A stretch of DNA of 64,000 bases from Saccharospirillum sp. (lineage in GTDB: Bacteria; Pseudomonadota; Gammaproteobacteria; Pseudomonadales; Natronospirillaceae): assembly GCA_022565595.1 (NCBI GenBank), contig JAIUML010000002.1, positions 62,001 through 126,000 of the forward strand. Reading direction: 5' to 3'. This document shows, one piece after another, positions 2,018 through 19,460 of the stretch (position 1 is its first letter; each line of letters begins with the position of its first letter). Made by a program: the position numbers and the translations under genes. The notes under the pieces were generated by a model. It was not told the origin of the DNA, did not search any database, and saw only the letters and a program-made list of their open reading frames with translations.

Positions 2018-4264
2018 TTAATGAGTCCGCTGAAACACTCGCCGCACATCGGCCACGTTGGAGATTTTTGACATCTGCGCCATGATTTTACCGAGCGCAT
2101 CGATGTCTTCGATTTCAATGGTCAGTCTCATATCCGCCTGGCTTTCATCCTTGTTGGATAGGGTGTTGACCGAGGTGACGTTGATGTTGTTGTTGGCCAT
2201 CACCATCATGATGTCGCGCAACAGGCCGGTGCGGTCGTATGCCAATATATTGAGTTCCACCGGGTAGGTGCGTCTGGTCTGGCCGCCCCAACTGACTTCG
2301 ATGACTCGTTCCGGTTCGCGGCTCTTCAGCTGCAACAGATTGACGCAGTCCTGGCGGTGAATGGAGACGCCGCGGCCGAGGGTAATGAAGCCTACCACCG
2401 GGTCGCCCGGTACGGGTTTACAGCATTTGGCGATGCTGGTCATCATGTTGCCAACGCCGTGGATGACCAGATCGCCGCTGGGTTGGTCGGTATCCGATGC
2501 CGGACCCACCTTGATTTCGTCCTGCTGTTGCGGGTTGACCAGGTTCTCGATGCTGTGCACGACCTGCATCAGGCGAATATCGCCCGCGCCGATGGCCGCA
2601 TAGAGGTCGTCTGCCTCAGTGAAGTTGACCTGACGTGCTACCTCGTTCATGTCGACTCTGGGCAGGTTGAAGCGCTGCAGTTCGCGCATCAACATCGACT
2701 TGCCAGCGCTGATGTTCTCGCCCCGGTCGAGGGATTTGAACCATTGACGAATTTTAGCGCGGGCGCGGGAGCTGTTGACGTAGTTCAGATCCGGGTTCAA
2801 CCAGTCGCGGCTCGGGCTGGCTTCTTTGCCGGTGAGAATGGACACCTGGTCGCCGATCTTCAAGCGATGCGTCAGCGGCACAATGCGACCGTTGACCTTG
2901 GCACCGCGGCAGCGATGCCCGATGTCGGTGTGAATCTTGTAGGCGAAATCGAGCGGGGTAGCGCCCTTGCTCAAATCCACTACATGGCCTTCGGGGGTCA
3001 ACACATAGATGCGGTCGGAGGTGACGTCGACACCCATTTCCTCGACCATTTCCTGGATGTCACCCAGTTCGTCATGCCATTCCAGCACCTGGCGCAGCCA
3101 GTTGACCTTGTCTTCATAGCCACGCGAGTGTGCCTTGCTTTTGGCGTCGGTCCCTTTATAAACCCAGTGAGCGCAGACACCCAGTTCAGCATCGTCGTGC
3201 ATATCGTGGGTTCGAATCTGGACTTCGACTACCTTGCCTTCTGGCCCAATTACAGCCGTGTGCAAGGAGCGGTAACCGTTCGGCTTGGGCGAGGCGATGT
3301 AATCATCGAATTCACGGGGGATGTGTCGCCACAAGGAGTGCACGATGCCGAGTACGGTGTAGCAATCGCGCACGTCCGGTACCAACACACGAAAGGCGCG
3401 AATGTCGTAGACCTGGCTGAAGCCGATGTTCTTGCGTTTCATTTTCCGCCAGATGGAGTAGATGTGCTTGGCGCGGCCTTGAATCTCGGCCTGGATGCCA
3501 GCCGCAGTTACTTCGTCCTGCAGAATGTTTTGCACGTTCTCAATGTAGTGCTGCCGGTCGAGGCGCTTTTCGTCCAGCAGTTTGGCAATCTTTTTGTAAT
3601 CCTGAGGCTCGATGTAGCGAAAGGAGAGGTCCTCCAGTTCCCATTTAAGCTGGCCCACGCCGAGACGGTGTGCCAGCGGCGCGTAGATGTCGAACACCTC
3701 TCGGGCGACCTTGTAGCGGCGGGCTGCAGGCGCATTCTTAACTGCTCGAATGGCACAGGTTCGTTCTGCCAGCTTGATCAGGGCGACGCGAACATCGTCG
3801 ATCATTGAAACCAGCATTTTGCGCACCGCTTCGCCCTGGGTTTCGCTTGACCCCAACACCGACGCGCGAGTGGATTTGTGTTTGGTGTGGATGGCGGCCA
3901 TGCGCAGCACGCCCTCGATCAGGCTGGCCACCCTGGGGCCAAACTGATCGCGTACTGTGTCGAGCGGCAATTCTTCTTCACGCACGGTACGGTAAAGAAT
4001 GGCGGCCACCAGGGCATCCTGGTCAAGCTTCAGGTCGGCCAGGATTTCCGTCATTTCCAGACCGGTTCTATAGGCCGACTGACCTTCACCCCAGTGATTC
4101 TGGCGTTCACCCGCTTCCTGCTCCGCAACGCGAGCAATGCGGCAGGCACGGACCAGTTCATCTTGATCTACAAGGGGAACTTTGTCTTCGATGCGCGCCA
4201 GCCAGGCCTCAAGATCGACGGTGCCGTCACGAAATACTGGCTGGTCTTCCCGAACCTTTACCAT
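2018..4264 (-). CDS. relA: GTP pyrophosphokinase RelA ((p)ppGpp synthetase I)
   Basis: 748 aa, matching E. coli RelA (744). It makes pppGpp/ppGpp from ATP and GTP or GDP on ribosomes stalled by uncharged tRNA. Order of domains: inactive hydrolase (the HD signature is replaced, AAILYRTVREE), synthetase (YDIRAFRVLV, then PKPNGYRSLHTAVIGPEGKVVEVQIRT), TGS (DRIYVLTPEGHVVDLSKG), Zn-finger/helical part with CC (IAKCCKPVPGDPVVGF) and C-terminal ACT (RTYPVELNILAYDRTGLL). The missing HD pair separates it from the bifunctional SpoT. It lies directly between cysM and mazG; rlmD, which sits between relA and cysM in Pseudomonas, is absent here. Confidence 0.97.
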   Translation of the reverse strand: MVKVREDQPVFRDGTVDLEAWLARIEDKVPLVDQDELVRACRIARVAEQEAGERQNHWGEGQSAYRTGLEMTEILADLKLDQDALVAAILYRTVREEELPLDTVRDQFGPRVASLIEGVLRMAAIHTKHKSTRASVLGSSETQGEAVRKMLVSMIDDVRVALIKLAERTCAIRAVKNAPAARRYKVAREVFDIYAPLAHRLGVGQLKWELEDLSFRYIEPQDYKKIAKLLDEKRLDRQHYIENVQNILQDEVTAAGIQAEIQGRAKHIYSIWRKMKRKNIGFSQVYDIRAFRVLVPDVRDCYTVLGIVHSLWRHIPREFDDYIASPKPNGYRSLHTAVIGPEGKVVEVQIRTHDMHDDAELGVCAHWVYKGTDAKSKAHSRGYEDKVNWLRQVLEWHDELGDIQEMVEEMGVDVTSDRIYVLTPEGHVVDLSKGATPLDFAYKIHTDIGHRCRGAKVNGRIVPLTHRLKIGDQVSILTGKEASPSRDWLNPDLNYVNSSRARAKIRQWFKSLDRGENISAGKSMLMRELQRFNLPRVDMNEVARQVNFTEADDLYAAIGAGDIRLMQVVHSIENLVNPQQQDEIKVGPASDTDQPSGDLVIHGVGNMMTSIAKCCKPVPGDPVVGFITLGRGVSIHRQDCVNLLQLKSREPERVIEVSWGGQTRRTYPVELNILAYDRTGLLRDIMMVMANNNINVTSVNTLSNKDESQADMRLTIEIEDIDALGKIMAQMSKISNVADVRRVFQRTH

Positions 4265-4320
4265 CTGTGTCTCTGCATCCAGGCAACAACCTCATCGGTT
4301 GAAGCCGGTTAATTGTTCGT

Positions 4321-5211
4321 CTACCGGTAGACGCCGGTCGACAGGTAACGGTCGCCCCGGTCGCAAACAATAGCGACGATGACGGCATTTTCAAGTTCCT
4401 TGCTGAGCCGAAGAGCACCGGCAACCGAGCCACCTGATGATACACCGGCAAAGATCCCTTCTTCTGCTGCGAGCCGACGCATGGTTTCTTCGGCTTCCTG
4501 CTGGCTGATATCGAGTGTTCTGTCGACACGGCTGGCATCGAAAATTTTTGGCAAATAGGCCTCTGGCCAACGCCGTATGCCTGGGATATGCGAGCCTTCC
4601 GAGGGCTGCAGGCCAACGATCTGTACAGCCGGGTTCTGCTCCTTGAGGTAGCGTGAAACGCCCATAATGGTGCCTGTTGTGCCCATGGATGACACAAAAT
4701 GAGTCACCTCACCCTTGGTGTCGCGCCAGATCTCCGGGCCTGTACTTTCGTAGTGCGCCAGGGGGTTATCCTGGTTGGCAAACTGGTCCAGCACCTTGCC
4801 TTTACCCTCTGCTTGCATTTGCAGTGCCAGGTCTCGCGCATATTCCATACCTTGCTCCTGGGTGACGCTGATGATCTCCGCCCCATAGGCACGCATACTG
4901 GCGCGGCGCTCTTCGCTGAGGTTGGCTGGCATGATCAGAATCATATTGTAACCCTTGATGGCCGCTGCCATTGCCAGGGCGATACCGGTATTACCACTGG
5001 TCGCCTCAATCAGGGTATCACCCGGGTGAATATCGCCCCGCTGCTCGGCATGAGCAATCATGCTGACTGCTGGTCGGTCCTTGACCGAGCCCGCCGGGTT
5101 ATTGCCCTCGAGTTTCAATAAAATGGTATTGCTTGTTTCCCCGGCCATGCGCTGCAGACGCACCAGGGGCGTATTGCCAACAAAGTCTTCAATCGTAGGG
5201 TAGGACGGCAT
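4321..5211 (-). CDS. cysM: Cysteine synthase B (O-acetylserine sulfhydrylase, CysM)
   Basis: 296 aa PLP enzyme forming cysteine from O-acetylserine and sulfide or thiosulfate. The PLP lysine is K44 in NPAGSVKDRPA; the phosphate/substrate loop TSGNTGIALAMAA and the glycine-rich GVSSGGSVAGAL follow. The short active-site region and the RRWPEAYLPKIFD stretch favour CysM over CysK. I start at the ATG 5211-5209, preceded by AGGAGAGGC, rather than at the in-frame codon 30 bases upstream, because the protein then begins as family members do (MPSYPTIEDFVGNTPLVRLQ). It lies 56 bases upstream of relA, same strand. Confidence 0.93.
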   Translation of the reverse strand: MPSYPTIEDFVGNTPLVRLQRMAGETSNTILLKLEGNNPAGSVKDRPAVSMIAHAEQRGDIHPGDTLIEATSGNTGIALAMAAAIKGYNMILIMPANLSEERRASMRAYGAEIISVTQEQGMEYARDLALQMQAEGKGKVLDQFANQDNPLAHYESTGPEIWRDTKGEVTHFVSSMGTTGTIMGVSRYLKEQNPAVQIVGLQPSEGSHIPGIRRWPEAYLPKIFDASRVDRTLDISQQEAEETMRRLAAEEGIFAGVSSGGSVAGALRLSKELENAVIVAIVCDRGDRYLSTGVYR

Positions 5212-5426
5212 CTGCCTCTCCTGAAACGGGTAATACCCCATGAAATTCTGTACGTGAACGCGACAGAATGGACAAGAGGCTTACTTTTAATAAACCGATC
5301 ACCAAACCAACATTGTATCAAACCCGGACCCAATTGGCGTAATCTACTGCGCTGGGGCCTGTCGGACTAATTGACCCGGCCGGTACGGCCGATTACAGTG
5401 CTTTTACATCGATCAGGTTACGCATC

Positions 5427-8294
5427 ATGAGCACTACTGGCCTACAAAACCGAATACTGTTCATCGCTCTCGCCCCCGTTTTCATTTTCGGCATTGCGCT
5501 GACGATCTGGTTCACTCGTAACGACGTCGTGCAGCAGCGCGATGCCTTCAGCGCTCGTACCGAAACAGCGGTGCAAAGGCTCTCTGATGCCCTGTCCATG
5601 CCGCTGCAACATGGCGATGTCGAACTGGTTCAGGCCCTGTTGCGACGCGCTCTGGGCGAGCGAGATGCGCGCTCGGTGCGACTGTTCGACCCCTTTGGCA
5701 GTGAATGGTTGCAATCCGGGCCCAGCATGGTTGGGCCAGCCTACCCCCAGGCGATCACCGATACCAATCGCCTGACTCAGGTGCGCAGCTTTGAGACCTA
5801 TCGCTACCTGACTCCCATCAGCCCTCCGTCTGACTTGCGGCTACGCCTGAATACCTCGACGCCGGTCGGCTGGCTCGAAGTCGAATTTGACTATGCCAAT
5901 ACGCGCGTCGCCCATTACCGGTCTGTGTTAATCAACTTGCTCATTCTGCTGTGCGGTTTGCTCGCCGTGTCTGGCCTGGCATTCTGGTTGAGCCGAGAGA
6001 TCAGCCGCCCGGTGCGCAATATGATTAGAACGGTAGAGGCGATCCGCGAAGGCAATCTGGATGTGCGAGTCAATCCCAGTGCCAATGGCGAATTGCGCGA
6101 CCTGGAATCCGGCATCAATTCGATGGCTGAAACGCTGAAAGAAGCCTACGAAGACATGCAAATCAGTGTCGACCAGGCCACTCAGGATTTACGCGAGACG
6201 CTCGAAACCATCGAGATCCAGAACATTGAACTGGACATGGCGCGGCGCGAGGCACAACAGGCCAACCAGGTGAAAACCGAGTTTCTGGCCAACATGAGCC
6301 ATGAGATATGCACCCCGCTGAATGGCATCATCGGCTTTGCCCGCCTGCTGGCAAAATCCAACTTGACGCGCAAGCAGGAAGACTACATCAGCACCATCAT
6401 GTCCTCCTCCCAAGGCCTGCTGACCATTATCAATGACGTGCTCGATTTTTGTAAAATCGAGGCGGGCAAATTGATGCTCGACAATCGCAGCATGAACCTG
6501 CGCGAGACCATTGAAGATGTTCTGGTCATGCTCGCACCAGCCTCTCAATCCAAGAATCTGGAGGTCGTATCACTCTATTACAGCGATGTGCCAGAGCAAC
6601 TGATTACCGACCCTCTCAGACTGAAACAGGTGCTGACCAACCTGGTCAACAATGCCATCAAATTTACCCCCGAGGGCAGCATCGTCATTCGCACCATGAT
6701 AGAGCAGGCTCAAGGCAACAAGGTGATGGTGCGCATCAGTGTCACCGACACCGGCATCGGCCTGACCAAGGCGGAGCAGAAAGCCCTCTTCCATGCCTTT
6801 TCTCAGGCTGACTCATCAACCGCCCGTGAGTTCGGCGGTACTGGACTGGGTCTGGTGATCTCCAAACGTCTGGTCGAGCAGATGGGTGGCGATATTGGCC
6901 TGGACAGCGTCAAGGGCGAGGGATCCACCTTCTGGTTCAACATCAAGGCCGAAGTCGCGCCGGCCGTACAACAGCCGCCGAAACGTACCGAGTTGAATAA
7001 CTTCCACCTCGCCATTGTCGAACAGCGTGAGATGTCGCGCCTGGCCTTGCGCCATCAGGCTGAGGAATGGGGCATGAGAGTGACTGAGCTGTCCAGCCTG
7101 GATGCCCTGCTGCAACGCCTGGCTACCGACCAGGAAGCCCGCCCTGATGTCGCCCTGATCGATGTCAGCGGCTTTGCAGATACCGAACAACTGTACCGCC
7201 AGATACTCAAGTTGGAACGAGAGCTGAACTGCCCGACGCTTGTGGTGGCAACCGCCAATGAAGATGACATCAGTTATCGTCTGCTGGAGCAAGGCGCCCA
7301 ACACTACCTGTCCAAACCGGTACGAACTCAGCAAATGTTTCATTCCCTGCTGCAAATTCTTCATCCGGAAGCCGCCGAGAAACTGCCGTTGTCTGAACCA
7401 CTGGTGCTCGGTTCGGTGCGCAGTGCCGTGCGGGTTCTGGCAGTGGATGACAACAGTGCCAACCTGAAGCTGATTATAACCCTGTTGGAAAACATGGGTC
7501 TGGTGGTCGATGGCGCGCACAATGGTGAGGCAGCACTGGAGGCTGTGCAGACCACCCACTACGACCTGATCTTCATGGACATTCAAATGCCGGTAATGGA
7601 CGGTATAGAAGCCACACGTCGCATCCGGCAATTGGAGCCCGCTCAGGTGCGAGTCCCGATAATCGCTCTGACGGCTCATGCCCTGGCAGAAGAACGGCAA
7701 AACATGCTCGACAGCGGCATGGACGATTACCTGACCAAACCGGTTGATGAAGACCAATTGCAACGCACCCTGTTCAAGTGGACCGGCGCTTCCCTTCAAG
7801 AAAACCCTGCAACTCGCAGCGATCGCCATGAAGAAGAGCCACCAGCTCCCCTGGATCTGGAGCAATTGCACAGCCTTGCTGTGGTTGACCTGGTGTCAGG
7901 CCTGGAAAAAGCCAGTGGCAAACTCGGCCTCGCCCGGGATATGTTTCATATGCTGATGGACACCCTCGACAACGACCAGGCGCACATCAACGACCTTTAC
8001 CAACAGGGTGACTACAAGGCGTTGCTGGAACAGGTCCATCGACTGCACGGCGCTACCCACTACTGCGGCGTACCGCGTATCCAGCAAACCGCCATGTACA
8101 CCGAGAGCCTGCTCAAACAGGGCCACTATGCATTGATTGAAGATGCCTTGTTCATGCTGAACGAAGAGATTAACGAAGTGTTGCGTTGGGATCAGGACAA
8201 CGATCGTGAGAAGTCATTCGAGCAAGCGTTGAAAGTCTACGCCTATCAGGTTCAACAGAAGTCGAGCAAGCGCAAGAGTACGGTGAGTAGATAG
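5427..8294 (+). CDS. gacS: Hybrid sensor histidine kinase GacS/BarA
   Basis: 955 aa, the layout and length of GacS/BarA, which phosphorylates GacA/UvrY and so controls the RsmA/CsrA small-RNA switch. Order: TM1 (9-30), periplasmic sensor (~31-167), TM2 (168-188), HAMP (189-240), DHp with H292, HATPase ([37 protein letters not shown]), a degenerate receiver-like part (~525-655), a true receiver with D718 ([11 protein letters not shown]) and a C-terminal HPt domain with H871 ([12 protein letters not shown]). Oddity: the H-box reads [10 protein letters not shown], with Cys at 295 where nearly all such kinases have Arg. It is divergent from cysM and convergent with acpS. Confidence 0.93.
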
Positions 8295-8296
8295 CC

Positions 8297-8686
8297 TCAC
8301 TGTATAAGGGCAAAAGCTACAACGGCCTGCTTTTCATCCGACAGACTCAGCAACACCTCGGTCGCCTGGAGTCGCGCCAGATGCTCGGCGGCGCAACCAC
8401 TGATTGCAACGCCAGGCGCCCCGTTGGCGTCCGGTAAAATTTCGATATCCTGAAACGTCACCCCCTGAGCGATACCGGTACCAAGCGCCTTGGCGATGGC
8501 TTCCTTGCCGGCAAAGCGGTTTGCCAGGAATCGAACAGACTGCTTTCTGCGCTGGTACTCCGCCTGCTCAGCGGCAGTCAGAATGCGCCTCAGGAAGCGT
8601 TCGCCTTGTCGTTCAAGCACTTGAGCGATGCGCTCAATATCAACAATGTCTGTGCCTATACCTCGAACCAAGGGCCCGCTCTCCAT
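8297..8686 (-). CDS. acpS: Holo-[acyl-carrier-protein] synthase
   Basis: 129 aa. It transfers the 4'-phosphopantetheine arm of CoA onto apo-ACP. The AcpS signatures are present: GIGTDIVDIERI (Mg-binding Asp) near the start and RFLANRFAGKEAIAKALGTGI (the FxxKEAxxKAxG motif). Its ATG overlaps the stop of the upstream diguanylate cyclase by one base (TAATG), so translation of the two is probably coupled. In related genomes acpS follows pdxJ; here pdxJ is absent. Confidence 0.95.
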   Translation of the reverse strand: MESGPLVRGIGTDIVDIERIAQVLERQGERFLRRILTAAEQAEYQRRKQSVRFLANRFAGKEAIAKALGTGIAQGVTFQDIEILPDANGAPGVAISGCAAEHLARLQATEVLLSLSDEKQAVVAFALIQ

Positions 8687-10490: not shown

Positions 10491-11395
10491 GAGCCTTCGG
10501 AATACCCCAAACTCTTGAGGGCGCGTTCGTCGTCTGCCCAACCACCCTTGACTTTTACCCAGAGGTTAAGCATTACACGACAGTCGAACAGTTTTTCCAT
10601 ATCCAGGCGCGCATCCTGACCCACCTTCTTGATGCGAGCACCCTTGTCACCGATGACAATCTTTTTCTGGCCTTGACGCTCCACCAGAATCAACCCATGG
10701 ATGTGCAGTATCCCCTGCTCTGCCTTGAATTGTTCAATTTCTACGGCCATGGAATAGGGCAGCTCGGCACCCAGTTGGCGCATCAGTTTTTCCCGAATCA
10801 ATTCGGCCGCCATAAAACGCTCGGTTCGGTCGGTAATCTGATCTTCAGGAAAATGGAATGGCCCCTCGGGCATGCGCTGCCTCAGGCACTCAACCAGCGC
10901 ATCCAGGTTCTGGCCACGCAAGGCCGATAGTGGAATGACTTCAGCAAAGGTAAAGTGTCCCGCCACCCGTTCTATATGAGGCAACAGGAGCCCCTTGTCG
11001 TCAACCTGATCAATCTTGTTAATGGCCAGTATCACCGGTGCCTGGCAGCGCTTGAGCTTGTCCAGCACCCATTGATCTTCCTCGGTCCAGGTGACACCAT
11101 CGACCACAAAAACAATGGCATCGACATCCGCCAGAGCCGAGTCGGCAGCCCGGTTCATGTGCCGGTTGATGGCGCGTTCTTCCTGGCGGTGCATGCCGGG
11201 CGTATCCACAAACACCAGTTGATCTGAGCCTTCTGTATGAATACCCAGCACCTGATGCCTGGTTGTTTGAGGTTTGCGCGACGTTATGGAAATTTTCTGA
11301 CCCAGGAGGTGGTTCATCAATGTCGACTTGCCCACATTTGGGCGGCCTACGATGGCGACAAAACCACAGCGAGTCGGGGTACTAGTGTCGTTCAC
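10487..11395 (-). CDS. era: GTPase Era
   Basis: 302 aa from GTG 11395-11393 (E. coli Era 301). It binds the 3' end of 16S rRNA and checks 30S assembly. G-domain motifs: G1 [10 protein letters not shown]3 DTPGMH, G4 NKID, G5 SAL; the C-terminal KH domain has [21 protein letters not shown]. The chosen GTG overlaps the end of rnc and has GGAG 11 bases upstream; the protein then starts [20 protein letters not shown], like other Era proteins. A TTG/ATG-type start 33 bases further up is possible. Confidence 0.95.
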
Positions 11396-13775: not shown

Positions 13776-15578
13776 TTAGCTATCCACTTTGAGTATTGCC
13801 AAAAAGGCATCCTGGGGAATCGAAACCGATCCCACCTGTTTCATGCGCTTCTTGCCTTCTTTCTGGCGCTGCAGCAGTTTCTTCTTGCGGCTGACATCGC
13901 CACCATAACATTTGGCGGTCACATTCTTGCGCAGTGCTTTCACTGTGGCTCGCGCTACAACCTGATTCCCAACAGCCGCCTGTACGGCAACATCAAACAT
14001 CTGACGAGGAATCAACTCTTTCATTTTTTCACACAACAAACGACCGCGACGCTGGATATGGTCCCGGTGCATAATAACGGCCAGAGCATCAACACGATCC
14101 CCGTTGACCAGAATATCCAGGCGCGTCAGATGGGCCGCCTCGAAGCGATCGAAAGAGAAATCCAGAGAGGCAAAGCCACGGCTGACGGATTTCAGTCGAT
14201 CGAAAAAGTCCATGACGATCTCGGCCATGGGCAGATCGTAAACCAGTGAGACCTGGCCACCCATGAACTGCATGTCTTTCTGTACACCACGCTTTTCAAT
14301 ACAGAGTGTGATGACATTGCCCACATGCTCCTGAGGAACCAGGATACTGGCGCGAACGATGGGCTCGCGAAACTCTTCGATATTGTTTACGGCCGGTAAC
14401 CTTGAGGGGTTATCGACATAAAGCACCGTGCCGTCCGTTTTAACGATCTCATAGACCACCGTCGGCGCTGTGGTGATCAGGTCCAGATCGTATTCGCGCT
14501 CCAACCTCTCCTGGATGATCTCCATGTGGAGCATGCCAAGGAAGCCACAACGAAACCCAAAGCCCAGCGCATCTGAGCTTTCTGGCTCATAGAACAGGGA
14601 GGCATCGTTCAGACTGAGCTTCTCAAGTGCCACCCGAAAATCTTCGTAGTCTTCTGCCGATACTGGAAACAGCCCGGCATAAACCTGCGGCTTCACCTTC
14701 TTGAACCCGGGTACAACTTCAACGTCTGGCGTGTTGTACAGGGTGATGGTATCGCCAACCGGTGCACCACGAATTTCCTTGATGGACGCACAGATAAAGC
14801 CAACCTCGCCAGCTTTCAGCTCCTTTTGCTCGGTCATTTTGGGGGTGAAGATGCCCAACTTATCGACCACATGCTGGCGGCCGGTACTCTTGAGCAATAT
14901 CTTGTCACCTTTGCGCAACCGACCGTGACGAACCCGTACCAGGGATACAACACCCAGATAATTGTCGAACCAGGAATCGATGATCAGCGCCTGGAGATTG
15001 CCTTCGATGTTGCCCTCGGGCGGTGGAATGCGCTCAATCAGTTGCTCCAGCACATCTTCGATGCCAAGCCCACTCTTGGCGGAGGCTCTGACCGCATCGT
15101 GCGCATCAATACCGATAATCTCTTCGATTTCCTGAGCCACGCGCTCCGGCTCTGCCTGAGGCAAGTCCATCTTGTTCAGTACAGGCACCACTTCCAGCCC
15201 CTGCTCAATGGCGGTGTAGCAGTTGGCGACCGACTGAGCTTCCACGCCCTGGCCAGCATCAACCACCAACAGGGCGCCTTCACAGGCAAAGAGCGAGCGG
15301 GAAACCTCATAGGCAAAGTCGACATGCCCTGGGGTGTCGATGAAGTTCAGCTGATAAACCTTACCACTGCGGGCCTTGTAGTTCAGAGTCACACTCTGGG
15401 CCTTGATGGTAATACCTCGCTCACGCTCGAGGTCCATTGAATCCAGCACCTGCTCGGCCATGTCTCGATCACTCAGACCACCACACACCTGAATAAAACG
15501 GTCCGCAAGGGTGGACTTGCCGTGATCAATATGGGCGATGATGGAAAAGTTGCGAATATGGGAAAGATCGCTACTCAC
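13776..15578 (-). CDS. lepA: Elongation factor 4 (LepA)
   Basis: 600 aa, the standard length. A ribosomal GTPase that back-translocates or helps 30S biogenesis. G1 AHIDHGKST (residues ~15-23), switch [11 protein letters not shown]4 NKMD and the C-terminal LepA-specific domain ([21 protein letters not shown] ... [22 protein letters not shown]) are all clear. It is followed 14 bases on by lepB; the lepA-lepB pair is conserved. Confidence 0.97.
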
Positions 15579-15719: not shown

Positions 15720-17096
15720 CTAACCGGTCGGAATGGCCAGATAGATGATGTTGGTACCACGAAGGATACGCACAGCTACAGCGCCATTTTCCGGCAACTG
15801 GCGCATCAGGCGGTCAAAATCCTCCTTGCTGCGAACAAACTCACCCGCGAGCATGGTAATGACATCACCGCTGCGCAAACCGGCTTCTTCGGCAGGGCCG
15901 GGCATCACCCGCTCAACCAGCACACCATCGCGATTCTCGACATCGACCACAATAATGTTCAGGCTGTTGTCAGCGCTGGGGGTTTCAGGCTCCGGTGCCT
16001 GTGCCGTCGCTGCGTCTTCCAGAGTGCCTATGGTCACATCCAGGGTCACGCGCTCGCCACCACGCATGACTTCCACATCGACCGTCCTGCCCGGCCGAAC
16101 CTGGCCCACCAGAGGCGGCAAATCCGAGTAACGACGCACGGTTTCGCCATTAAAGGTCAGAATAATGTCATCCATGCGAATACCACCCTCAGCTGCGGGG
16201 CTGCCATCGAACACTCGAGCGATCAAGGCGCCCTCGGCTCTGTCGAGGCCCATGGAACGCGCCAACTCCGGGTTATCGTTGAATGGGGGGTACATTTCCA
16301 CACCGAGCCAGCCACGAGCAACGGCACCGGTTTCACGCAGTTGGTCAGCAATATCCATGGCGATGTCGATGGGAATGGCAAAGGAAACACCCATGAAGCC
16401 ACCAGAACGGGTGTAGATCTGGGCGTTGACGCCGACGACTTCACCATCGAGGTTAAACAAGGGCCCGCCGGAGTTGCCCGGGTTGATGGCAACATCGGTT
16501 TGTATAAAGGGCACATAGCGGTCAGCACCTCCCAGGGCTCGGCCCTTGGCACTGACAATACCGGCAGTCACCGAGTATTCGAAATTGAACGGTGAGCCGA
16601 TGGCCAGTACCCATTCACCGACTCTCAGATCAGCGCTGCTACCGATCCGAACGGCGTGCATCTGGTGTCCATCAACCTTGAGCAAGGCCACATCGGTTTG
16701 TGGGTCTGTACCTACGATCTCGGCCTGGTACTCGGTGCCATCGGTCAGCGTGACGTTCACCCTATCGGCACCATCGACGACGTGATTGTTGGTAAGGATG
16801 TAACCGTCATCAGAAATGATAAAGCCGGATCCCAGACCTTCTCTGGGGCGGGGAGTCGGTTGCTGCTGCTCGAACTGTTCCGGCAATTGGTCACCGAAGA
16901 AGTACCGGAATATCTCAGGCACCTGCTGTTGTCGACTGCCCCTGGTAGCGGCCGTGGTGGTGGTTGTGATCTTCACAACGGAGGGGGAATTATCTTCAAC
17001 CAATTGGGTGAAATCTGGCAGCCCTTGAGCAACCGCTTGAGCCACCAGCAGACACATTGCCGTTAGCGCTGTGTACAGAGTAGACCACTTCAACAT
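15720..17096 (-). CDS. mucD: DegP/DegQ-type periplasmic serine protease (MucD-like)
   Basis: 458 aa. Periplasmic HtrA protease and chaperone. Signal peptide ~1-24 (cleavage after AVAQ), trypsin-like domain with catalytic triad H105 (TNNHVVDGA), D135 (TDVALLK) and S209 (NPGNSGGPLF), then two PDZ domains (~265-355 and ~370-455). The order rseC-mucD-lepA matches the Pseudomonas mucC-mucD-lepA arrangement, which is why I use the mucD symbol. The upstream algU-mucA-mucB genes of that locus are missing here, so sigma-E control from the same operon is not available. Confidence 0.9.
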   Translation of the reverse strand: MLKWSTLYTALTAMCLLVAQAVAQGLPDFTQLVEDNSPSVVKITTTTTAATRGSRQQQVPEIFRYFFGDQLPEQFEQQQPTPRPREGLGSGFIISDDGYILTNNHVVDGADRVNVTLTDGTEYQAEIVGTDPQTDVALLKVDGHQMHAVRIGSSADLRVGEWVLAIGSPFNFEYSVTAGIVSAKGRALGGADRYVPFIQTDVAINPGNSGGPLFNLDGEVVGVNAQIYTRSGGFMGVSFAIPIDIAMDIADQLRETGAVARGWLGVEMYPPFNDNPELARSMGLDRAEGALIARVFDGSPAAEGGIRMDDIILTFNGETVRRYSDLPPLVGQVRPGRTVDVEVMRGGERVTLDVTIGTLEDAATAQAPEPETPSADNSLNIIVVDVENRDGVLVERVMPGPAEEAGLRSGDVITMLAGEFVRSKEDFDRLMRQLPENGAVAVRILRGTNIIYLAIPTG

Positions 17097-17196: not shown

Positions 17197-17697
17197 CTAC
17201 AGAATGTCCTGGCGAGAATTATTCTGGTCCAATGGTACGCCAACGCTGGCTGGATCCGGTGTGTTGCTGACGTCGACAATCTGCGGTACCCAGTGCTGCG
17301 CTGCCGACTTGAACCGGTAACGAGTCAGCGCTAAAGCCACGGCCCCGCCCAACAGCGCCATCGCCAACTGCACTGGTTCTGCAAGCGACATTAGATGGCC
17401 TGACAGCAAGGCCAAAAAACCAGACAACAAGGGCAGCAGGTATAACCAGAGGGCGGCACGGGTCAATCGATCCTCCTCAATCGCCAAGCGCACCCAATTA
17501 CCGGGTCTGACTTCGCCAGCGTAAGGAATCGCGAAATGGTTCTTGGCTTCCTGACGGGAGCCATCAGTCACCTGGCTGAGCACCGCCTGCCCACAACCAT
17601 GGCGCGCCTTGCAACTCTGGCAGGCGCTGCTTTGAACCACGGCCACAGTGACCTGCCCCGGCTCTGTCGCAATCACCTGACCGTTTTCATAGACCAC
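17197..17697 (-). CDS. rseC: RseC/MucC-family membrane protein
   Basis: 166 aa. N-terminal cysteine cluster ACQSCKARHGCG (residues ~24-35) followed by two membrane helices (LWLYLLPLLSGFLALLSGHLM and VQLAMALLGGAVALALT), the RseC/MucC layout. In E. coli RseC modulates sigma-E signalling and takes part in the SoxR-reducing system. It is the first gene of the rseC-mucD unit and is divergent from nadB; only 158 bases separate it from the nadB start. With no algU, mucA or mucB present, a redox role is as likely as an envelope-stress one (inference). Confidence 0.85.
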   Translation of the reverse strand: MVYENGQVIATEPGQVTVAVVQSSACQSCKARHGCGQAVLSQVTDGSRQEAKNHFAIPYAGEVRPGNWVRLAIEEDRLTRAALWLYLLPLLSGFLALLSGHLMSLAEPVQLAMALLGGAVALALTRYRFKSAAQHWVPQIVDVSNTPDPASVGVPLDQNNSRQDIL

Positions 17698-17855
17698 TGT
17701 TGCCGATCCACCCTTTGCCTACCGAAGCCGCCATTGTACAGCCTCATGACTGGCCAACCAAAGGCAGACGATGAGAGAAAGCCTTAAGAACCTTGCTTTT
17801 CGTGGAATTTATCACGACGATTAACGACAGCCTTCCAACTGGAGAGTCCCCCTTC

Positions 17856-19460
17856 ATGGCATCCCGCTTGAGCGCAGATGTACTGGTCGTAGGCACCGGA
17901 GCCGCCGGTTTGACCCTGGCCCTGAGCCTGCCACGCGAAACCAATGTCTACCTGATCTGCAAAGGCACCCTGGGCACTGGCGCCACCGCCTGGGCGCAGG
18001 GTGGCGTAGCGGGTGTACTGGATGAAACCGATTCGGTTGAAGACCATGTTCAGGATACGCTTGGGGCCGGCGCTGGATTGTGCGAGCCCAAAGCTGTGCG
18101 ACATACCGTCGAGCATTCAACCGAGGCCATTCAATGGCTGGTAGATCAAGGCGTACCCTTTACGTTCGCCGATGGCTCGACACTGAACTACCACCTGACC
18201 CAGGAGGGTGGCCACAGTCACCGTCGCATTATTCATGCAGCCGATGCCACCGGCCTGGCCATTTCAGACACCCTGATCAATGCAGTCAGACAACGTGCCA
18301 ACATCCATATATTGGAACACCACGTTGCGGTTGATCTGATCACACGCCATAAACTGCGCGGTGCTCGTGACGGCGACGATCAATGCCTGGGTGCCTATGT
18401 GCTCGATACCCGCAATGACCGAGTCATGACCATTGGCAGCAGAGCAACGGTGCTGGCTACAGGCGGCGCCAGCAAGGTTTACCTCTTTACCAGCAACCCT
18501 GACGGAGCCACTGGCGATGGCATCGCCATGGCCTGGCGCGCCGGCTGCCGCGTCGCAAACATGGAATTCAACCAGTTCCACCCGACCTGCCTGTACCACC
18601 CCAGGGCCAAGTCTTTTCTGATCTCGGAGGCCGTCCGGGGTGAGGGCGGCTTGCTGAAACTGCCCAACGGCGACCGTTTCATGCCACAGTTCGATGAGCG
18701 CGCCGAGTTGGCACCACGCGACATCGTTGCCCGTGCCATCGACCACGAGATGAAGCGCCTGGGCGCAGACCACCTGTACCTGGACATCAGCCACCGCCCG
18801 GCCGAATTCATTCTCAGTCACTTCCCCACCATCCACAAACGCTGTCTGGAATTCGGCTACGACATGACTCGAGAGCCCTTGCCGGTCGTCCCTGCCGCGC
18901 ACTATACCTGTGGTGGGATTCGCACCAATACCTCCGCCAGGACCGACCTCAAAGCGCTCTATGCAGCAGGTGAATGCGCCTACACCGGCCTGCACGGCGC
19001 TAACCGCCTGGCCTCCAATTCGTTGCTGGAGTGCATCGTCTACGCCCGTGCTGCTGCTGCCGATATTGCCCAGCAGCCAGCATCAAATTTTGATCCAGAC
19101 AGCCTGCCATTATGGGACGAATCGCGCGTCTCGGATTCTGATGAGAAAGTGGTGATCAGCCACAACTGGGATGAATTGCGGCGATTCATGTGGGATTACG
19201 TAGGCATTGTGCGCACCGACAAGCGCCTGCAGCGAGCCAGACGCCGGGTGCAACTGCTGCAAAAGGAAATACACGACTACTATTCACATTTCCGAATTTC
19301 ATCGGATTTGCTGGAACTGCGCAATCTGGTGGTGGTCGCAGAGTTGATCATCGAATCCGCACTGTCCAGAAAGGAAAGCCGGGGCCTGCACTTCACTCTG
19401 ACTTACCCTGAGACTCAACCGACGCCGGAAATCACTGTGCTGACACCGGATCTGCCCTGA
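17856..19460 (+). CDS. nadB: L-aspartate oxidase NadB
   Basis: 534 aa FAD enzyme, first step of NAD synthesis: aspartate to iminoaspartate. FAD-binding DVLVVGTGAAGLTLAL at ~8-23, GGASKVYLFTSNPDGATGDGIAMAWRAG, the substrate region EFNQFHPT, and GLHGANRLASNSLLE near the C-terminus. The start is ATG 17856 with GGAGAG 9 bases upstream; an upstream in-frame extension of 21 residues is not conserved-looking. It is divergent from rseC and convergent with ygfX. Family relative of SdhA, and a neighbour of the flavinylation factor gene sdhE. Confidence 0.95.
   Translation: MASRLSADVLVVGTGAAGLTLALSLPRETNVYLICKGTLGTGATAWAQGGVAGVLDETDSVEDHVQDTLGAGAGLCEPKAVRHTVEHSTEAIQWLVDQGVPFTFADGSTLNYHLTQEGGHSHRRIIHAADATGLAISDTLINAVRQRANIHILEHHVAVDLITRHKLRGARDGDDQCLGAYVLDTRNDRVMTIGSRATVLATGGASKVYLFTSNPDGATGDGIAMAWRAGCRVANMEFNQFHPTCLYHPRAKSFLISEAVRGEGGLLKLPNGDRFMPQFDERAELAPRDIVARAIDHEMKRLGADHLYLDISHRPAEFILSHFPTIHKRCLEFGYDMTREPLPVVPAAHYTCGGIRTNTSARTDLKALYAAGECAYTGLHGANRLASNSLLECIVYARAAAADIAQQPASNFDPDSLPLWDESRVSDSDEKVVISHNWDELRRFMWDYVGIVRTDKRLQRARRRVQLLQKEIHDYYSHFRISSDLLELRNLVVVAELIIESALSRKESRGLHFTLTYPETQPTPEITVLTPDLP

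Follow-up and report, generated by a model that had tools for sequence, protein, structure and literature searches.

The window analysed here is a stretch of 64,000 nucleotides (C2:62001-126000 of the source genome, G000). The assembly is a draft of 66 contigs with a total of 4.77 Mb and a completeness of 99.94%. The features of interest are given in Table 1. Between nadB and rseC-mucD-lepA the genes algU, mucA and mucB are missing, as had been claimed in the preliminary description of this DNA; both the gene calls and tblastn bear this out. The distance of 158 bases between nadB and rseC is also correct, but these genes do not face each other as described there: they are divergent and lie back to back.

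Table 1. Features at the nadB/rseC junction and the separate set on contig C26. Positions refer to the window except where a contig is given.
Feature	Position	Strand	Remarks
lepA	13776..15578	-	conserved, downstream of mucD; 92% identity to G109 and G112
mucD (DegP-type)	15720..17096	-	trypsin domain and two PDZ domains; TIGR02037 472 bits
rseC/mucC, retained	17197..17697	-	GTG start; Pfam PF04246 (RseC_MucC) 78 bits, cut-off 24.4
Scar in the spacer between rseC and nadB (divergent)	17698..17855		158 bases; site of algU-mucA-mucB in relatives
Weak candidate sigma-70 promoter for rseC-mucD	17733..17761	-	AACCAA 17756-17761, ATTGTA 17733-17738; on the minus strand TTGGTT-17-TACAAT
nadB (L-aspartate oxidase), retained flank	17856..19460	+	ATG start; NF006567 922 bits, above cut-off
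rpoE-rseA-rseB set	C26:30315-32496		without rseC and without mucD

The retained RseC is a member of its Pfam family and conserves the C-x2-C...C motif of the family alignment; its score with NF008115 lies under the equivalog cut-off of that model. A tblastn search of the gap between rseC and nadB gave no remnant of AlgU, MucA or MucB. Judged from its sequence, the gap is the scar left by a clean loss of the three genes. An assembly gap at this point was rejected: the window contains 0 N and two other members of the genus, G109 and G112, have the same junction.

The separation of these genes is rare in the order. In a sample of 96 genomes, 73 have matches to both RseA and RseC, and in 68 of the 73 the two lie no more than 4 kb apart. 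In three of the five unlinked genomes (G092, G071 and G022) the assembly is a fragmented draft, and the two matches fall on separate contigs. A clear separation is found only in G000 and G005. Within the family the picture is more varied. The comparison of relatives suggested in the preliminary description shows that three genus mates (G049, G110 and G111) have nadB, algU-mucA-mucB, rseC, mucD and lepA all in place; in three other members of the genus (G000, G109 and G112) the nadB-rseC site is empty. The same empty site is present in G096, G102, G108, G113 and G005, which gives 8 of the 22 family genomes. Parsimony requires about six changes over the family tree in order to explain this distribution.

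Only two of the eight empty-site genomes, G000 and G005, have an rpoE set elsewhere; in the other six an RpoE-type sigma factor is missing altogether. G102 gives no RpoE-type match at E 1e-8 or better. In G109, G112, G096, G108 and G113 no RseA or RseB is found beside the best other ECF sigma factors, several of which adjoin ChrR-like cupin proteins. An RseC query gave no match among the named genomes, and a search with the RseB-type alignment gave matches in two Natronospirillum genomes only. We have also observed, in a conserved place of the genus, an ECF sigma factor with a ChrR-like cupin anti-sigma gene after it: the pair is found in G112 (L094, G112:C5:19000-25000, at 2439-3709) and in G109 (L095, G109:C2:19500-25500, at 2416-3683). 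Its counterpart in G000 has the sigma match at C2:21719-22204, outside the window. Another ECF sigma factor of G000 (L010, G000:C1:88000-96000, at 3509-5854) has downstream a small, anti-sigma-like protein rich in Cys as well as a methyltransferase-like gene; an ECF sigma factor on G112:C7 is likewise upstream of a methyltransferase-like gene.

A second gene of the pathway has disappeared. A DegS-like protease besides MucD is found in all family genomes that carry the canonical set, counting as algW-bearing G098, in which the single match is algW-type and lies away from its rseC. The gene algW is absent in ten family genomes: the eight with an empty site and also G099 and G100, which have a divergent set in place. 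In G049, G110 and G111 algW is found in a single syntenic block; the protein of G111 has a trypsin domain and one PDZ domain. G000, G109 and G112 keep the block, from which algW has gone cleanly with no remnant found. In G000 this locus is about 70 kb from the nadB-rseC locus. An alpha-amylase-like gene occupies the algW stretch there (L083, G000:C2:1-20000, at 6732-8591); G110 has both genes, G049 and G111 have only algW. No protease with trypsin and one PDZ domain is found in G000, and its only TIGR02038 match at E 1e-25 or better is MucD; no other strong match to the HtrA/DegS family occurs in this genome. Within the family the co-loss of algW has no exceptions; after correction for ancestry there are three clean independent pairs, with a p value of 0.25 which is not significant. 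Outside the family AlgW and RseA track each other imperfectly: in G019, G061 and G094 RseA is linked, yet there is a single DegS/DegP-like match.

A search of the whole genome for rpoE/algU, rseA and rseB, as had been proposed, located a set on C26. RseA and RseB each have a single match in G000, and the two genes stand directly downstream of an RpoE-like sigma factor. The scores are over the cut-off for RseA_N (28.6-29.6 bits) and for MucB_RseB (67-68.6 bits). The sigma factor has TIGR02939 (the RpoE/AlgU equivalog) as its best family match, but since its 179 bits are below the curated cut-off of 236 we call it RpoE-like and not a certified equivalog. It is 38-40% identical to the AlgU of G049, G110 and G111, 47% to the relocated sigma factor of G005 and 46% to the in-place sigma factor of G100. 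A complete set accompanied by a copy of rseC would have indicated a simple relocation: this is not what is found, as the only RseC match in the genome is the copy in the window. The set is flanked (L009, G000:C26:22001-42000) by an HD-domain signalling protein at 5419-8289 and a cytochrome P460-type gene at 10670-11188; around the set of G005 the neighbours differ, being genes for an AidB-type acyl-CoA dehydrogenase and for a TPR protein. We also considered a shortening of the periplasmic tail of RseA as a cause and dropped it: the tail has about 50 residues and that of the genus mates about 60, a difference which is too small.

Promoters were searched with a sigma-E weight matrix built from 21 algU upstream regions; all p values come from single-base shuffles and are uncorrected for the number of regions tested. 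Before the C26 rpoE there is a sigma-E-like site, GGAACTATTAAGCGATGTCTGCGTCCTA (p 0.0075), which fits the autoregulatory consensus GAACTT...TCNNA. A sigma-E-like site is also found before rpoE in G005 (p 0.0025). The same search, foreseen in the preliminary description for rseC-mucD, found no such site before rseC in any of the eight empty-site genomes (p 0.23-0.99), nor before mucD in G000 (p 0.36). The candidate sigma-70 promoter of G000 has a p value of 0.27 against shuffles, no better than chance when taken alone, and is absent in a stricter scan; a similar site in G109 has a p value of 0.017. The earlier suggestion that RseC and the DegP-type protease must be controlled in some other way is thus favoured by the absence of a sigma-E-like promoter and is otherwise conjectural. 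We infer that rseC-mucD is probably uncoupled from sigma-E.

The origin of the C26 set can be approached from the trees. In the species tree (NadB, MucD and LepA) G000 lies within its genus (support 99) and G005 is sister to G099 and G100 (100), which are Natronospirillum. These two genomes have the divergent type of rpoE in its canonical place, with nadB and rseC on either side. In the trees of the set itself G000 is grouped with G005, with a support of 98/95 for RpoE, 99/92 for RseB and 100/99 for both joined. The two species fall inside a divergent clade of four members together with Natronospirillum, with a support of 100/99 or better. The AU test rejects a tree in which G000 joins its genus mates, with p values of 0.031 for RpoE, 7e-10 for RseB and 3e-73 for both joined, and the rejection stands when G005 is left out (p 5e-9). 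The idea that the sigma genes have moved is therefore only half right: a set exists on C26, but it is of another, divergent lineage and is not the native one. Such a placement is better accounted for by a transfer from the Natronospirillum/G005 side than by a relocation. The native algU-mucA-mucB was lost together with algW; we consider it probable that the C26 set was acquired from that side, with rseC-mucD kept outside sigma-E control. The argument for horizontal transfer is drawn from the trees, in which G000 has a long branch, since the flanks of the sets on C26 and in G005 show no common orthologs or shared transferred block, the base composition of the set is ordinary for the genome and no tRNA is found in the 20 kb that contain it. 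With its nearest relative the sigma factor shares only 47% identity, so that the transfer would be old or the donor unsampled.

Other origins can be considered. The ancestor of the family might have had two rpoE-rseA-rseB sets, of which G000 kept the divergent one and its genus mates the canonical one, with no transfer involved. The high divergence of the sequences would agree with such old paralogs, as would the position of the G000 set, at a different place and with different neighbours than in G005. However, both types are found together in none of the 22 family genomes, and in G099 and G100 the divergent type is at the canonical site, as expected for the native gene of that branch. We think this history unlikely. 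It is more improbable still that the native genes were simply relocated to C26, where they evolved rapidly. The three genes are the same and in the same order, and fast evolution could draw the G000 set towards other long branches. Nevertheless the grouping with genus mates is rejected for RpoE, for RseB and for both joined, also without G005, and the -10 sequence GTCCTA and its spacing are common to G000 and G005. Finally, an artefact of assembly or binning at the junction, or a contaminant origin of C26, might be suspected in a draft of many contigs with C26 genes which look foreign in the phylogeny, but it has hardly any likelihood: the window is free of N, G109 and G112 are independent genomes with the same junction, the contamination estimate is 0.33%, and the C26 region resembles the rest of the genome in GC and third-position GC. 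The best reading is a recurrent loss of the AlgU/AlgW module in the family, together with a xenologous AlgW-less substitute in G000.

A whole signalling module, algU-mucA-mucB and algW (the DegS-type site-1 protease), has been lost in this lineage while rseC-mucD stayed. If the above reading is correct, any sigma-E signalling would run from the set on C26. Its sigma factor may drive its own operon from the GGAACT...GTCCTA promoter and would be held by RseA with RseB. The release would take place without AlgW: the first cut might be made by MucD, the sole remaining strong HtrA-type protease, or by another protease. An ordinary promoter within the 158 bases would serve for transcription of the pair rseC-mucD, outside sigma-E control. 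MucD usually brakes the sigma-E pathway. A first cut of RseA by MucD is plausible by analogy because in E. coli the growth defect seen on depletion of degS was suppressed by overexpressed DegP, although degS could still not be deleted (PMC3386227). That a sigma-E system works in this way, without DegS/AlgW, with MucD or some other protease as trigger and with rseC-mucD out of the sigma-E regulon, is a tentative proposal about which we have considerable doubts.

In E. coli the essential role of degS is to provide sigma-E activity (Alba et al. 2001, as cited in PMC3386227). Repeated losses of the trigger module and one distant replacement within a single family are a natural experiment on the dispensability of sigma-E. 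This experiment bears as well on the role of RseC and MucD without sigma-E, and on the release of RseA without a DegS-type protease. No published account of the loss of algU-mucA-mucB or algW was found in the literature searched, which covers few of the subscription journals.

In the known pathway RseA/MucA is cut by DegS/AlgW and then by RseP (review PMC10202637). G000 likewise has RseA- and RseB-type proteins and an autoregulatory-looking promoter, but no protease of the AlgW/DegS type was found in it. The Pseudomonas-type operon has the order AlgU-MucA-MucB-MucC-MucD (RpoE-RseA-RseB-RseC in E. coli). G000 keeps nadB, rseC/mucC, mucD and lepA in order, whereas the canonical position between nadB and mucC-mucD lacks the three regulatory genes. 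It still has a set of sigma factor, anti-sigma factor and RseB, but this set is elsewhere, comes from a divergent lineage and has neither rseC nor mucD. The sets of Natronospirillum (G099 and G100) and G005 form one clade with that of G000 for RpoE and RseB, and these species also lack AlgW: in Natronospirillum the divergent set is in situ, whereas in G000 and G005 it is found elsewhere in the genome.
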